A stretch of 64,000 nt of DNA from Candidatus Merdiplasma excrementigallinarum (lineage in GTDB: Bacteria > Bacillota > Clostridia > Lachnospirales > Lachnospiraceae), in NCBI GenBank assembly GCA_018713435.1, contig DVOS01000036.1:40042-104041 (forward strand), written 5' to 3'. This document shows, piece by piece, positions 1,826 to 50,348 of the stretch (the first letter of the stretch is position 1; each line of letters opens with the position of its first letter). Both the position numbers and the translations under genes were made by a program. Under the pieces are notes generated by a model. That model was given only the letters and a program-made list of their open reading frames with translations, did no database searches and was not told the origin of the DNA.

Positions 1826-4800
1826 GATATTGGTTACCGTAACATCCTCAGTCTCCACTGTAGACTGTGTACCCGGAATACCCAGTACCCAGCCCGGGCA
1901 CTTGGTTGTTGTTCCATCTTGGTTAGCCACAGTAAGCGCTTCCGGCATTACCTCACCGATTTCAGTAGAACCTTCCGCCGTATTGCTGGTAGCCTCTGCG
2001 CCTGCCAGTTCATAGCCCGGCGCCGTGGAAGTTTCCACAATCACATAGGCCTTAAACCACAGCAGATCAGAGAAGGTCACCGTTCCATCTGAGCCGGTTT
2101 TTCCAGTCCATTTCGGCTGCATGCTGTTCAGGTCGGCATTCCGTGCCTCTTCATCTGAATTGAAGGGACCGTACACCGCAAAGGTTGCGCCCTCTACCGG
2201 TGTATTGGGATCATCCGCAGCCTCCTTGGTCACTACCAGATTTCGGTACAGCACCAGGCCCAGGTCCTTGGTGTGGTCATACACCTCATCTGTGGACGGA
2301 TGCAGGAAGAACCGCTCAGAATTCAGTGTAGTGGATGCTTTACTATTGGCTTCCCTGTAGTTGTTGTCTTTCGTCTCATTCTCATATGTGCTATACAGTT
2401 CCTCCAGATCCCGGGAATATCCTGCTCCTGCTTTTTCTGTTACCGCAAAGTTTCCGGACACATTCTGCAGATCCGCCACCAGTTTGTAGGTTGCCGGCGC
2501 GCTTCCCCTCAGCTTACCCACATTCAGGGACGCCACTCCGTCAGTCACTGTGTAGGCTTCGTTTTCATTGTCCGTCTTCAGGGTCGCAGGATCCAGCTTA
2601 TCAAAGGTGTACTCTGCTTTTGTAAGCCATGTCGTATCCGCTTTCGTATCATAGCCTACCTCCGTCGCAGTGCTGCCGCTGTATTTAACCAGCGTGATGC
2701 CGATATTATTCAGCATATCCTGTACAATCTTGTAGTTAAAGTAGCTGCCGCCGGTGCCATATACATACTCCCCATCCTGGCTGCCGTCATTGTTGGCGTC
2801 AATCCAGATATGGCCGCCCACCTTCACCTGTTCGGGAAGCAGGGTGGCGGAAACCACGTTGGAGCTGACATAGGATCCGGCATTGGACGCTTCGCTGGCT
2901 CCCCCGTCAGAAGCATCGCCGTCCGGTACGAAATTCCAGAAATGAGCCTGGAAATCGTTCATGGCGTTCTCAAAGGAGTCTTTTGCAAAAGCATCTTCAT
3001 CCGTATCGTACATTTCGGGTACGCTGGTACGGAACTCCACTACCAGCCGGTCGTCTGTCTCCAGAACAATGTCCTCCCGCAGCACTACCATGATCGCCGT
3101 GATCTGACTCTTCTCCGCGCCTGTCATGCCTTCCGTCAGAGTCTCCCATCCGGTAGGCGGAGCATCAAACTCAGCCGTATTTACCGCCGTGCGGTCAACA
3201 GCAGTTTCTGTTGTATAATATACCTTGTAATCACTTTCTGCCGCCAGCGTCTCTCCTGCTGCCTGCACAGAAGCTATGGAGAAAAACTCCAGTTTCCATT
3301 TACTGAAACGGGCTGTTCCATTGCCCATCGTATCATTCAACACAGGCAGAACATCTATCACTGCCAGGTGAGAGCGGTACTCCGAGGTGGACGTGTTTGT
3401 CACGGTCAGCCGGTAGTCTACCCATCCGCCGTTTCTTGTGGTACGGGCCAGACGGTTGGTCTGATAGCCGTCCGTATCCTTGCTGCCCTTGTTCTCCTTC
3501 AGCAGCGTAATGCCGGAGTTAGTAGTCCAGTTGGAGTCTGCGTAGTTCCAGAGATAACCGTACCCGGTCAGTCCCGCATTTTTCAGCAGGTCGGACAGTG
3601 CCTGTGCCCGGTCGGCTCCGATATCATTAATATCCTCTGCCACTTCCTCCAGTGTTCTGGCCCATCCGCCGTTTACATCCTTAAACGCGGAACCATTCTC
3701 GTTCTCCGCATCCACAATACCCTTGGTCTGTGTGGTGACAAACGCATAGTTCCTCATGGTATTTCCATAGTTTACCACGCCTCTGCCAACTTTTGCGGTC
3801 AGCTCCACTGTCACTGCTGCGCCCGGCTCCAGATCTCCGCTCAGCCGGATTATCGCAGCCGTATTCTCCTCCTTACTGGAGGCGGTCTGCTGCTGGATTG
3901 CCAGGTTACTTGCGCTGGTGCTTTCGGTTATTTTGGCAAAGCTATCGCCGGTCACGGTCACGCCCCGGGGCAGCAGATCAATAATCACCGGGTTAGGCAG
4001 ACTCTTTCCGCCTTTATCCGACTCGTTTGTCAGAGTGATCTCATACTTCACCGTTCCATCCAGGCTGACACTTCCGTATCCTTCTGCCGTCTTCTTGGAA
4101 ATAGTAATCCTGGGAGCGTCTTTCTCCTTAAAGCTGTTAGTCGCCACACTGTTCCGATGAATAGTTGTAGCCTCTACAGCCTGCTCTCCCTTTTCATTCC
4201 ACGTTCTGTAGGTCAGGGTAGCCTCCGCCGTATTTTCTATTTTGCGGATCACAGGAGCATAGGTCTGATCTCCGGTTTCTCCGTCAGTCTCGCCCTCGTC
4301 TGCACCTGTATTCTGATCCGGCGTCTCTTCGCCGGCATCCTGCCCGGTCTGGTCGTACAGCAGTACATCCAGGCTGACTGTGCCCGGCTTAAAGTCCGCG
4401 CCCAGCGCGTAGCCCTTCCCGCCGCCAAGGTCGCTGCTGTAGTCGATGCGGAAGCTCTGGATTCTGGCGTCAGCAGGAACGTTTGCATCCTGAAGTGTAA
4501 CCTTCCTGTCTGTTCCTCCATCCGATACCAGGATCTTTTGACTTGGATAATGATTTCCTTCAAAGTCAGTAAACGTAACGGTAGCGTACACATTCGCACT
4601 GGTGCCATCATCCGTATAGTGTTCCGTCTTGTGGGTTGCCTGTCCCAGCTCTATACTGGTAATGGAATACTGGCCTTTCAGGTCGATCTCGCCGCCGTCT
4701 TTGTCATAAGCGGTCAGTCCCGTATCCTCCAGCACAAAGCTGTCCAGGGGATAATTGGTGTTGGTCACCACAGGCGTTATGCTATAGGTAATCGTCTGGT

Positions 4801-7800
4801 TTCCTTCGTACAGACTGGGAAGATCCTCTGTTATGTTGGAGGTCTTCGTCAGAGTCAGGTCAACCTTGCCCAGCACATTATGCAGAGCGCATACTTCCTG
4901 CTCCTTCTGGTACTCTTCAATCTGTACTACTTTATACCAGACTACCCGCTTATCGCCCTTGATGATCGTGTCATATTTTTTCCCTTCGCCGGTCTCATGG
5001 CCTCTGGTCTCTGTCTCCACCACCAGGTAAGTCTTGCCCTGTTCCACGTCAAACATTTTGAAGGTGGTTTTACCATCGCCATCCAGCTGATCTGTCCAGC
5101 CCTGGCCATTCTCGATCAGGTTATTCGCAACCGCATAGGTGCTGATCTGATCATCCGTCAGAGACTGACCTTCTGTCAGTCCTGCTTCCTCCGGGATCTC
5201 ATAGACGGACACATAGGCTTCCGGTACAATGCCGGAGTTGCTTACATCGTCCTTTGTCACCTTCAGGCTCACCTTGGGAACATTGTAAACCTGGAATGTA
5301 TAGTCTCCGCTGATCAGATTTCCGTCCGGATTCAGCACATAGCCGGTTATTCCTTCTGCCACCTCAGTTGAAGCTGACAGCTCCGTTTCACCGTTCCATA
5401 CGCTGTCCACACCGGAATATCCCTCAACCGGCAGTTCCTCTGCCAGCGCGTACTTCTGGTCCTCACCGCCGGGCACATAGAAGGAAACCGTACCGTCAGT
5501 ACCGTCAGTACCGGTCGTCCCCTGAAGTTCCGTATCGGTGGACCATGTCGTTCCATCGCTGCTGTAGTACAGAGTAAAGCCTACGCCATCCAAAGGCTTT
5601 GCCTCTGCGCCGTGACGGTTGTCGAATTTGGTCACCGTGATGGTCACGCCCCTGGTATTGGGCATAATCAAAGCATCTCGCAGTTCATCTTCCGTCACGT
5701 TTTCCTTCTCTCGTGCCCCGTCATCATACTCTGTATGCACTCCGGGCCTCAGCGTTACGGTAATCGGCTCTTTGGACTTCTCATAGCCTGCGGGAGGCTG
5801 GGTCTCTGTAATCGTATACTCAGTGGCCTCCGTACTATACAGCATTACCTCAGCTGTGTATACGCCGGTTCCCACACCCTGGCTGGTGGTGATTTCTTCC
5901 AGACTAACCGTCTTGTCAGGGGCATCACTGGGCGCGATGGTAAACGCAGCGCCTGTCAGCGCGGGAGCCGTAGGATCGTCCTTATCAACCTTCAGGATCG
6001 TCACTTTGGCCTTCAGGTAGGTATTGGTGACGGATACCTGCAGGGTCCGGCCCGCATAATCCTTGGTTATTGTAATCGGGTATCTGCCATCGTCATTTGC
6101 CTCAATGTCGATAGTCGTATCTTTTTCGCTGTTCTCTCCCTTCAGAACCAGGGTGATGTTGGTCAGGGCATAGCCCGTTTTCGTTACCTCCTCCAGGTAG
6201 TACGTCTCGCCCAGAGCAAGGTTTTCAAACGTCCCTGCCACGCCTTCTGTAATTGTGACTCCATCCGCATCTACCTTGTTTCCGCTTTCATCATACAGGT
6301 TGAAGGTAAATTTATCCTCTGCGGGAGCTGCCAGATCAGAATCTGCCGCATCCGCCACAGTCTTGGTCACTTCCAGCTTGGCTTTGGGCTGATCCGCCAC
6401 AGTGAAGGAAGCCGCGTAGCTGTCATTTTCCTTCACATATCTGGTGTCCGTCCCCTCTGTTACTTCTACCTTTACATCCAGTCCGCCGGTGATCACTGTG
6501 TACTGGCCTTCCCCGTTCAGCATATAGCCTGTGGGGGCCTTTGTCTCCACAATATAGTAGATACCAGGCTCCAGATTGCCTTCGGTAGCCGTTCCGTTAT
6601 CTTTGGTGGATACAGTCTTATAGAATTCCCATCCATCCGGCAGGGAGGACGTATTCAGATTTCCGGCGCCAATCACTGCGGAATCTGTCATCGAAGTAAA
6701 CAGTTTCCGGTAAATGGTAAACTCAGTGCCTGCAAAACCGGTAGCCGTAGCTGAGTTCTTGGCGTCTTTTTTCTGGATCGTCAGGCTGCCCAGCTTCGGG
6801 TTCTTCACCGTCAGAGTTCCATCAAAGCCGTAGTCAGACAGTTTCTTCACCGCCGTCACCACCGGCTCACCGGCTTTAGTGCCTGTGGTAATTCCAAGCT
6901 CAATCCCTTCCCCTGACGGTACAAACTCAGCAATATCATCAGAAACTCCGTCCTGACCCGCAATGCCTGTCAGGTAATCGGTCAGGAAGCTGATGGAATA
7001 TCCGGACCCGCTCTCTGTCAGGTAGTAGGTGCCGCTGTCAATGGCAGTAAACTCTGCCACTCCGCTGCCATTGGTCAGCTTTGTGACTTCTGTTCCCTTC
7101 CCGTTTACAGGATTCAGCGTAAAGCTCCATCCGCTTACAGCGCTGCCCTTCATGTCTTCCTTTTTGATAGAGAGAGAAACCTTCTTCGGGTTGTACATAC
7201 TGATATGAAGGTTCTCATCCGTCACAGTAAAGTATCTGGCCGTTTCCGCCGTGCCGTACAGGCTCTCATAACCGGCGCTGCCTGTGCTGTCTCCGTTCTC
7301 AATAACCCGGTACTGGCCGCTCACCAGACCGTTGAGGAAACTGTAACTTCCGGAGTTCTGTGTTGTAAAGGTGGCTTTTCCGCCCTCTTTCTCACCCAGA
7401 TAGCAGAGATTGATATAGTCATACGCTCTCCACGTATCATCTTCCGTTGTGGTCGGATCGCCTGTATCCAGCCTCTCCAGCGTCATTGTCACGCCAGCCA
7501 GAGGCTGCCGGCCCGCATAATTCTTCTCAAAGTATCCATCCAGTTCTTCCGCTGTCTTCTCGGTGTTGACACCGTTTTCCGGCTCATAGCCGTACTTGCT
7601 GATGGTAACAGCGTAGTTATCCACGGGACGGTTCACCAGACGTACCTTATTCTCGTTGGAAGCCCAGTAAATACCTGCCGTTACATCCTCATCATCTGAC
7701 AGCTTCGGATTATCGCCCGCCTCGATAAAGTAGGCGTCATTCATCTCTACGGTGTCCTGCGCGCCTTCTTCTCCATTGTCAAGAGCCGCTTTGTCAAAAA

Positions 7801-17173: not shown

Positions 17174-17202
17174 TTGCTTTTCTGTCATTTCCATGCTATA
17201 CT
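17174..17202 (+). promoter_or_regulatory. queT promoter
   Basis: TTGCTT (17174-17179), 17 bp, TATACT (17197-17202). Confidence 0.7.
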
Positions 17203-17210
17203 ATGACCTG

Positions 17211-17320
17211 CTGCAAAGCCCATTAAAACCAAGGTCTTTCCGGGCTTGCCGCCGATTCCCGGCGTAAAATGAATCGAGTGTTCGAGACCTTCCACTCGTA
17301 AAACAAAACTAAAGGAGAAA
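17211..17320 (+). ncRNA. Structured queT leader, candidate preQ1-responsive element (class not assigned)
   Basis: AAGCCC(17216-17221)/GGGCTT(17242-17247); CGCCG(17250-17254)/CGGCG(17260-17264); CGAGTG(17275-17280)/CACTCG(17293-17298). Loop AAGGTCT (17231-17237) is fully complementary to loop AGACCTT (17285-17291). RBS AAAGGAG at 17311. Confidence 0.6.
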
Positions 17321-17327
17321 ACTGAAT

Positions 17328-17828
17328 ATGAGAGACAAAAAGGTATTATTTCTGGTCCAGGCGGCTGCCATTGCAGCCATCTACGTGGTTCTGACGGTTG
17401 CGTTCGCCCCCCTTTCCTTCGGGGAAGTGCAGGTGCGGTTCGCGGAGGGGCTGACGGTGCTTCCCTACTTTACACCGGCCGCCATTCCCGGCCTGTTTGC
17501 GGGATGCCTGATCGGCAACTTCTTTGGCGGCGCCATTCCCGTGGATATTCTCTGCGGAAGCCTTGCCACCCTGGCGGGGGCTGTGATTTCCCGGCTGCTG
17601 CGAAAGCACAAATTCCTGGTGCCCCTTCCGCCCATTATCGCCAATATCCTGGTGGTGCCCTTCGTGCTCTTCTACGGATACGGCGTAAATCTTCCCATCC
17701 CATTCCTGATGTTGACGGTGGGGATCGGCGAGGTACTTTCCTGCGGCGTCATCGGCACCATTCTGCTGCTGGCCCTGGAGCGTTACAGAGGAACCCTCTT
17801 CGGGACGCACGGCTCCCTTTCCGCATAG
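17328..17828 (+). CDS. queT: QueT family queuosine precursor ECF transporter S component
   Basis: MRDKKVLFLVQAAAIAAIYVVLTVAFAPLSFGEVQVRFAEGLTVLPYFTPAAIPGLFAGCLIGNF is characteristic of QueT/COG4708. Confidence 0.92.
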   Translation: MRDKKVLFLVQAAAIAAIYVVLTVAFAPLSFGEVQVRFAEGLTVLPYFTPAAIPGLFAGCLIGNFFGGAIPVDILCGSLATLAGAVISRLLRKHKFLVPLPPIIANILVVPFVLFYGYGVNLPIPFLMLTVGIGEVLSCGVIGTILLLALERYRGTLFGTHGSLSA

Positions 17829-49583: not shown

Positions 49584-50153
49584 TCAGACCGTCTTTTTTT
49601 TCAGCACCGCCGGCTTCACGGTATCCATCACCAAAAAGGTCAGCGGGCTGAAATACAAAAAACAGGTCAGCACACAGTAAATGGGAACCAGAAGTGCAAA
49701 CTGAACCAGTCTGCCCGGAATAATCGTAAAGAAATTATACCCCTGGAACAGCACCAGTCCGGATGTTGTCAAAACAAGTGAACTGATCGCCGCAGTCGCC
49801 ACAATGGTAAGTACAATGCCCACCGTTTTGCCTTTTCGGCTCCTTCCGGCATAGAAATATTTCGCCAGTCCGGGGATCAGTCCCCAGCAGGCAGCGGCAG
49901 CGGTGATAAAGGGGTCCACCGCATATCCTTTCATGAAACATCCCAGGATGTCCGCCGTAAAACCGCAGACAGCTCCTGCTGCCGGTCCCATCCAGAGACC
50001 GGCCAGAATCGTACAGACACTTCCCACCGAAATCCGGTAAGCACCCAGTTCCACCACAAGCACTCTGGTAAGCACCAGATGCATTGCTACGAGAAGAGCC
50101 ATGAAGACAAGAGTCCTCACATTCCAGTAAGTCCTGCAGCTGTTTTTCTGCAT
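49584..50153 (-). CDS. folT: Folate-type ECF transporter S component
   Basis: VFMALLVAMHLVLTRVLVVELGAYRISVGSVCTILAGLWMGPAAGAVCGFTADILGCFM; THF-riboswitch-like leader upstream. Confidence 0.88.
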   Translation of the reverse strand: MQKNSCRTYWNVRTLVFMALLVAMHLVLTRVLVVELGAYRISVGSVCTILAGLWMGPAAGAVCGFTADILGCFMKGYAVDPFITAAAACWGLIPGLAKYFYAGRSRKGKTVGIVLTIVATAAISSLVLTTSGLVLFQGYNFFTIIPGRLVQFALLVPIYCVLTCFLYFSPLTFLVMDTVKPAVLKKKTV

Positions 50154-50221: not shown

Positions 50222-50348
50222 TATGAGATGTTCTCATATGCAGCAACGGGTGCGGAAAATATATCGTAAGCCTTCTTATCAGCAGCTTTTCGTTTCACGG
50301 CGACTCCCCAGCCAATGAACACTTAACGCATAAATTCCTACTTCGCTA
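50222..50348 (-). ncRNA. THF riboswitch (class I-like) upstream of folT
   Basis: Reverse strand: AGTAGGAATTTATGCGTTAAGTGTTCATTGGCTGGGGAGTCGCCGTGAAACGAAAAGC...CCGCACCCGTTGCTGCATATG. Conserved GCGTTAAGTG, GGGGAGTyGCC, AACGAAA and GCACCCGTTGCTGCAT elements. Confidence 0.88.

Follow-up and report, generated by a model that had tools for sequence, protein, structure and literature searches.

Background

The preQ1-I RNA is a model riboswitch and has mostly been studied as a molecule of about 33-45 nt without any upstream sequence. The type I members of this class (RF00522; Carnobacterium antarcticus, Haemophilus influenzae, Neisseria gonorrhoeae and the Listeria monocytogenes queT leader) have in common with the RNA described here a 12-nt loop of the form UUCGNRACCNUC, a UU on top of the P1 5' strand, a UC before the 3' strand, an A-rich L3, a tail combining CUA with the Shine-Dalgarno sequence, a queT gene downstream and translational control, which is predicted in our case. 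The Listeria queT switch, a regulator of translation, binds two molecules of preQ1 (PMC12519234). The preQ1-II (COG4708) and preQ1-III riboswitches respond to the same ligand and serve related target genes, but their folds differ. The guanidine-II riboswitch offers a different kind of parallel. There, too, two hairpins of one leader are joined by a loop-loop helix, although the kissing helix follows ligand binding in that RNA, whereas here it would oppose it.

The RNA described here differs from the type I examples in its low Rfam score (see below), in its P1 of 6 bp and in having a pseudoknotted spacer and, upstream, a conserved kissing hairpin, neither of which appears in the consulted sections of the review and structural papers. 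No description of an upstream kissing partner of preQ1-I was found in the open-licence literature. The extra 5' hairpin carried by preQ1-I leaders in many gut bacteria is apparently undescribed, and it probably competes with the metabolite for the binding loop. We consider it likely that the leader as a whole is a preQ1-I type I riboswitch that controls queT translation and is equipped with an accessory 5' kissing hairpin.

The queT leader contains a preQ1-I type I aptamer

The leader, read over positions 17209-17327 of the window (the whole stretch of 64,000 nucleotides that was analysed, from Candidatus Merdiplasma excrementigallinarum), precedes queT, a gene of queuosine precursor transport (Table 1). 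Its predicted start near 17209 is supported by the extended -10 element TGCTATACT together with the TTGCTT hexamer upstream of it. The same -10 box, similarly placed, is found in most relatives' leaders, and AAAGGAG or AAGGAG is present in nearly all of them. A sequence-only reading of this DNA had described three hairpins and an exact 7-nt reverse complementarity between AAGGTCT (17231-17237) and AGACCTT (17285-17291), and had proposed a preQ1 riboswitch candidate ahead of queT. The hairpins and the loop-loop match were all found at these coordinates, and that reading was right about the gene, about the leader as a preQ1 riboswitch candidate and in treating the loop-loop match as meaningful.

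Table 1. Features of the queT leader, in window coordinates.
Feature	Position	Strand	Details	Basis
Promoter	17174..17202	+	TTGCTT 17174-17179, 17-nt spacer, extended -10 TGC-TATACT with hexamer 17197-17202	sequence
Hairpin 1 (H1), 5' hairpin	17213..17249	+	stem AAGCCC 17216-17221/GGGCTT 17242-17247; outer GC 17213-17214/17248-17249	
H1 loop	17222-17241	+	20 nt, A-rich	
AAGGUC in H1 loop	17231..17236	+	complement of aptamer-loop GACCUU 17286-17291; pair 17237-17285 incidental	comparison
Hairpin 2 (H2), mini pseudoknot	17250..17274	+	stem CGCCG 17250-17254/CGGCG 17260-17264	
H2 pseudoknot pairing		+	AUUC 17255-17258 with linker GAAU 17271-17274, across spacer UAAAAU	
preQ1-I type I aptamer	17275..17310	+	P1 17275-17280/17293-17298; loop UUCGAGACCUUC 17281-17292	RF00522, P1 covariation, own model
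Hairpin 3 stem (P1)		+	CGAGTG 17275-17280/CACTCG 17293-17298	
Aptamer tail parts		+	A-rich L3 from 17299; A30-C31-U32 equivalents 17308-17310	
Shine-Dalgarno AAAGGAG	17311..17317	+	3' end of riboswitch tail, expression platform	sequence
queT, ECF S component for queuosine precursors	17328..17828	+		Pfam PF06177 (QueT), E=3e-46

That reading had also suggested a divergent or new riboswitch class, which turned out to be mistaken: judged by sequence, hairpin 3 and its A-rich tail are an aptamer of the known preQ1-I type I, with every ligand-contacting position present. Pocket positions U6, U7, U16, C17, A30, C31 and U32, as given in the structural papers (PMC8752633, PMC11625349), are matched by UU 17281-17282, UC 17291-17292 and ACU 17308-17310, together with the A-rich L3. 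In the same papers, the hallmarks of type I are the UU atop the P1 5' strand, the UC ahead of its 3' strand and a CUA within the tail; all are in place, the last at 17309-17311.

An ordinary Rfam scan of the leader missed the preQ1-I aptamer. With high sensitivity, RF00522 was matched at 17270-17318 over the full model (1-45 of 45) with 24.7 bits and E=0.0074, below the gathering score of 39, and the same scan gave no match to preQ1-II or preQ1-III at E<=10. The search for a known class therefore returned a full-length, sub-threshold answer. Matches to GP20-b (19.6 bits, cut-off 36.2) and TCL6_3 were taken as chance. Comparable full-length, sub-threshold RF00522 matches occur in many genomes of the same family.

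Across 57 loci carrying QueT relatives, hairpin 3 and the tail hardly vary among those that have the aptamer. Within P1, 100% of cells are paired, four of the six pairs show two-sided changes and the covariation score exceeds all 500 shuffles; compensating variants of the strand include CGAGTG, CGTGTG, CGTGAG, CGTCAG and GGTGAG. A model trained on these loci found close relatives of the aptamer in 266 of 397 same-family genomes. The Rfam gathering score overlooks a widespread group of type I aptamers in this family. At the level of sequence, comparison of relatives establishes the identity of the aptamer, as it does hairpin 1, the conserved hexamer in its loop and the hairpin 2 pseudoknot.

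A conserved hexamer matches the aptamer loop

Viewed in one sequence, the loop-loop match is no more than suggestive. For the window alone, dinucleotide shuffles give p=0.012 for a leader match to the aptamer loop of at least 7, and the overall stability of the leader is ordinary (z=-1.0), so that single-leader folding was discarded as uninformative and the case rests on the relatives. We therefore compared 222 dereplicated aptamers, of which 139 have the loop GACCUU and 83 have other loops. AAGGTC lies within 150 nt upstream in 60 of the 139 GACCUU leaders, against a shuffled mean of 4.0 and maximum of 9. It is also the top hexamer within 60 nt upstream of these aptamers (47/139), ahead of the -10 box TATACT. 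Only one of the 83 leaders with other aptamer loops has it (Fisher 4.5e-14, uncorrected for kinship). Carriers of the hexamer group together on the QueT tree, with 8 changes against a shuffled mean of 14.5, so the leader counts are not independent. The complementarity is conserved beyond chance.

What is conserved is a match of 6 bp (AAGGUC/GACCUU), rather than the 7 bp first proposed. The seventh position shows no association, with T in 33 of 44 leaders that have A in the aptamer loop and in 13 of 17 that have another base, and a seven-base-pair kissing helix was ruled out accordingly. Two-sided covariation of the kissing helix was likewise not seen, since both strands are invariant among carriers; the support from related leaders for the upstream element is comparative in other ways. 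Among the 83 leaders with other loops, one has a hexamer within 60 nt that matches its own loop, and a search that took in leaders from other families of the order along with the rest, 83 of them with other loops, gave no convincing two-sided covariation.

Single-base variants of AAGGTC are rare, scattered and at background level where the hexamer is missing, which indicates that it is either kept whole or lost. On this sequence evidence the hexamer is optional, being absent from 79 of the 139 GACCUU leaders. AAGGUC is predicted to be unpaired more often than the remaining leader (0.67 vs 0.48), and its duplex with GACCUU is calculated at -6.3 kcal/mol, compared with -7.9 for the 7 bp of the window and -3.5 for the aptamer loop with the Shine-Dalgarno tail. 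The same six letters appear in differing settings, including CCCCGUACC-AAGGUC hairpins (leaders L163 and L203) and a position beside the predicted start (L223), and the spacing between hexamer and aptamer varies from 14 to over 120 nt.

It is improbable, in our judgement, that the leader is a plain type I riboswitch, in which hairpins 1 and 2 act as a 5'-end stabiliser and a spacer while AAGGUC owes its conservation to something else, such as inheritance or a protein or ribosome site. The 79 apparently working queT leaders that have the same aptamer without AAGGTC would fit such a reading, as would the clustering on the QueT tree and the near absence of some leaders altogether (L013, L031). 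Against this stand the all-or-none retention of the hexamer while the flanking stem varies, and its tie to the GACCUU loop. AAGGUC is, furthermore, neither a good Shine-Dalgarno sequence nor a GGA-type site. A plain ribosome standby site is made less likely by the UC of AAGGUC, which is complementary to the GA in the aptamer loop but has no counterpart in the Shine-Dalgarno consensus. A ribosome site of a leader peptide was also considered and rejected, as no start codon is conserved at the right distance.

The 5' hairpins

Hairpin 1 is itself supported by comparison. There are 43 distinct, compensating stems in 60 leaders, among them AAGCCC/GGGCTT, CCCCA/TGGGG, TTCCA/TGGAA, GAAGCC/GGCTTC and AAACCC/GGGTTT, and the mean stem score is 13.8 against 9.3 for shuffled sequences. 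In most carriers AAGGTC lies within a loop of the form NNAAAANNAAGGUC atop a stem of 4-9 bp.

The mini pseudoknot of hairpin 2, in which the loop AUUC pairs with GAAU adjoining P1, is seen in 24 leaders. Two-sided changes include AUUC/GAAU, AUUC/GAGU (wobble), GUUC/GAAC and G(U)CAC/GUGC (with a bulged U), and the stem covaries between GC, CG and AU. It occurs without hairpin 1 in L172, and so is a separate spacer module. This compact covarying pseudoknot, and the Rfam score below the gathering cut-off, might be thought to point to a new queuosine-related aptamer class or to a second aptamer within hairpins 1 and 2. We regard both as very improbable: the type I signature positions are all present, hairpin 2, whose two helices have no loop between them, is too small for a pocket, and many homologous leaders lack it. 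Strong matches to a joint model of hairpins 1 and 2 are, moreover, queT leaders or leader copies, and on the same grounds a dispersed repeat was rejected.

Two further variations were noted in these leaders. Another type of 5' hairpin, with an A-rich loop ending in CAA or similar, occurs in L038, L041, L057, L199, L210 and L214; it resembles hairpin 1 but lacks the UC, and the GG that follows is paired in the stem. Long structured insertions are found between hairpin 1 and the aptamer, or inside hairpin 1, in L002, L007, L016, L020, L025, L027, L202 and L228, with AAGGTC and the aptamer intact. One of them holds GCAGCCTGCCACTGGCAGCC, and they look like small palindromic elements.

A proposed mechanism

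The hexamer's partner, 17286-17291, is the counterpart of positions 11-16 in the type I RNA of C. antarcticus. In that structure, A12 belongs to the pocket ceiling triple and U16 contacts the second preQ1, at the beta-site. As the equivalents of both residues lie within the kissed segment, the pocket and the kissing complex are expected to be mutually exclusive. We infer that the two loops kiss in the RNA, that kissing and ligand binding are exclusive and that expression is affected; the direction of the effect is proposed by analogy with published structures only.

Without preQ1, AAGGUC of hairpin 1 would pair with GACCUU of the aptamer loop, the Shine-Dalgarno tail would be free and queT would be translated. 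Once preQ1 is plentiful enough, a stacked pair of ligands together with the A-rich tail would close the pseudoknot, the kissing helix would open and the Shine-Dalgarno sequence would be occluded. Since hairpin 1 is transcribed before the tail, it could act first during transcription: hairpin 1 and P1 would form and kiss on emerging, and preQ1 and the tail would later displace the kissing helix. Hairpin 1 would in this way set the threshold or the timing of the switch. The wider reading, in which metabolite and upstream hairpin compete for one aptamer loop throughout the lineage and an intramolecular anti-aptamer kissing complex tunes a two-ligand cooperative sensor, seems to us somewhat favoured. 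If the kissing hairpin is functional, the regulatory unit in many gut Lachnospiraceae would be about 110 nt long, its ON state would be a defined structure and the ligand threshold would be set by loop-loop competition.

A variant of this model appears doubtful but deserves mention. In the ligand-free RNA, the aptamer loop could trap the AAGG of the Shine-Dalgarno sequence with its CCUU, and hairpin 1, as the better partner, would chiefly compete with the tail for CCUU, freeing the Shine-Dalgarno sequence and raising the ON level with little change in ligand affinity. The duplex energies given above favour hairpin 1 over the Shine-Dalgarno pairing (-6.3 vs -3.5 kcal/mol), both AAGG stretches come after A-rich strands, and the tail tends to be one A shorter in those aptamers that have ACCAUC. 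However, CCUU/AAGG is not used as P2 in the published type I structure, and on that basis we rejected this pairing as a conserved P2. Most predictions of the variant are also common to the competition between hairpin 1 and ligand that we prefer.

Orphan aptamers and other loci

Several preQ1-I type I aptamers were found without a Shine-Dalgarno sequence or queT: L030:984-1025, L033:1695-1730, L157:2089-2123, 4079-4113 and 5291-5325, L114:2215-2250(-) and one in the middle of L277 (minus strand). Their tails diverge right after AAAACAAAAC(U), and for several there is an upstream promoter as well as an intrinsic terminator about 60-200 nt downstream. On the same strand, a real queT leader follows those of L030, L033, L157 and L277 at a distance of 1-17 kb. 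Going by sequence, preQ1-binding small RNAs and relics of leader duplication are the candidate readings.

Elsewhere in the window, a THF riboswitch (RF01831, 73.1 bits) lies at 50242-50347(-), ahead of an ORF at 49584-50153(-) that resembles an ECF folate S component. Among the other loci, L059-L064 have at their centre Rfam-grade preQ1-I aptamers whose P1 differs (GACTGG), and some of these precede ORFs resembling nucleoside hydrolases (MNARKVIIDCDPGIDDALALML..), perhaps acting in queuosine salvage. Finally, the queT leader at L055:2900-2995 has an aptamer-like hairpin, CGAGTG..CACTCG, whose loop and tail contain longer inserts; it may be a divergent preQ1-I.
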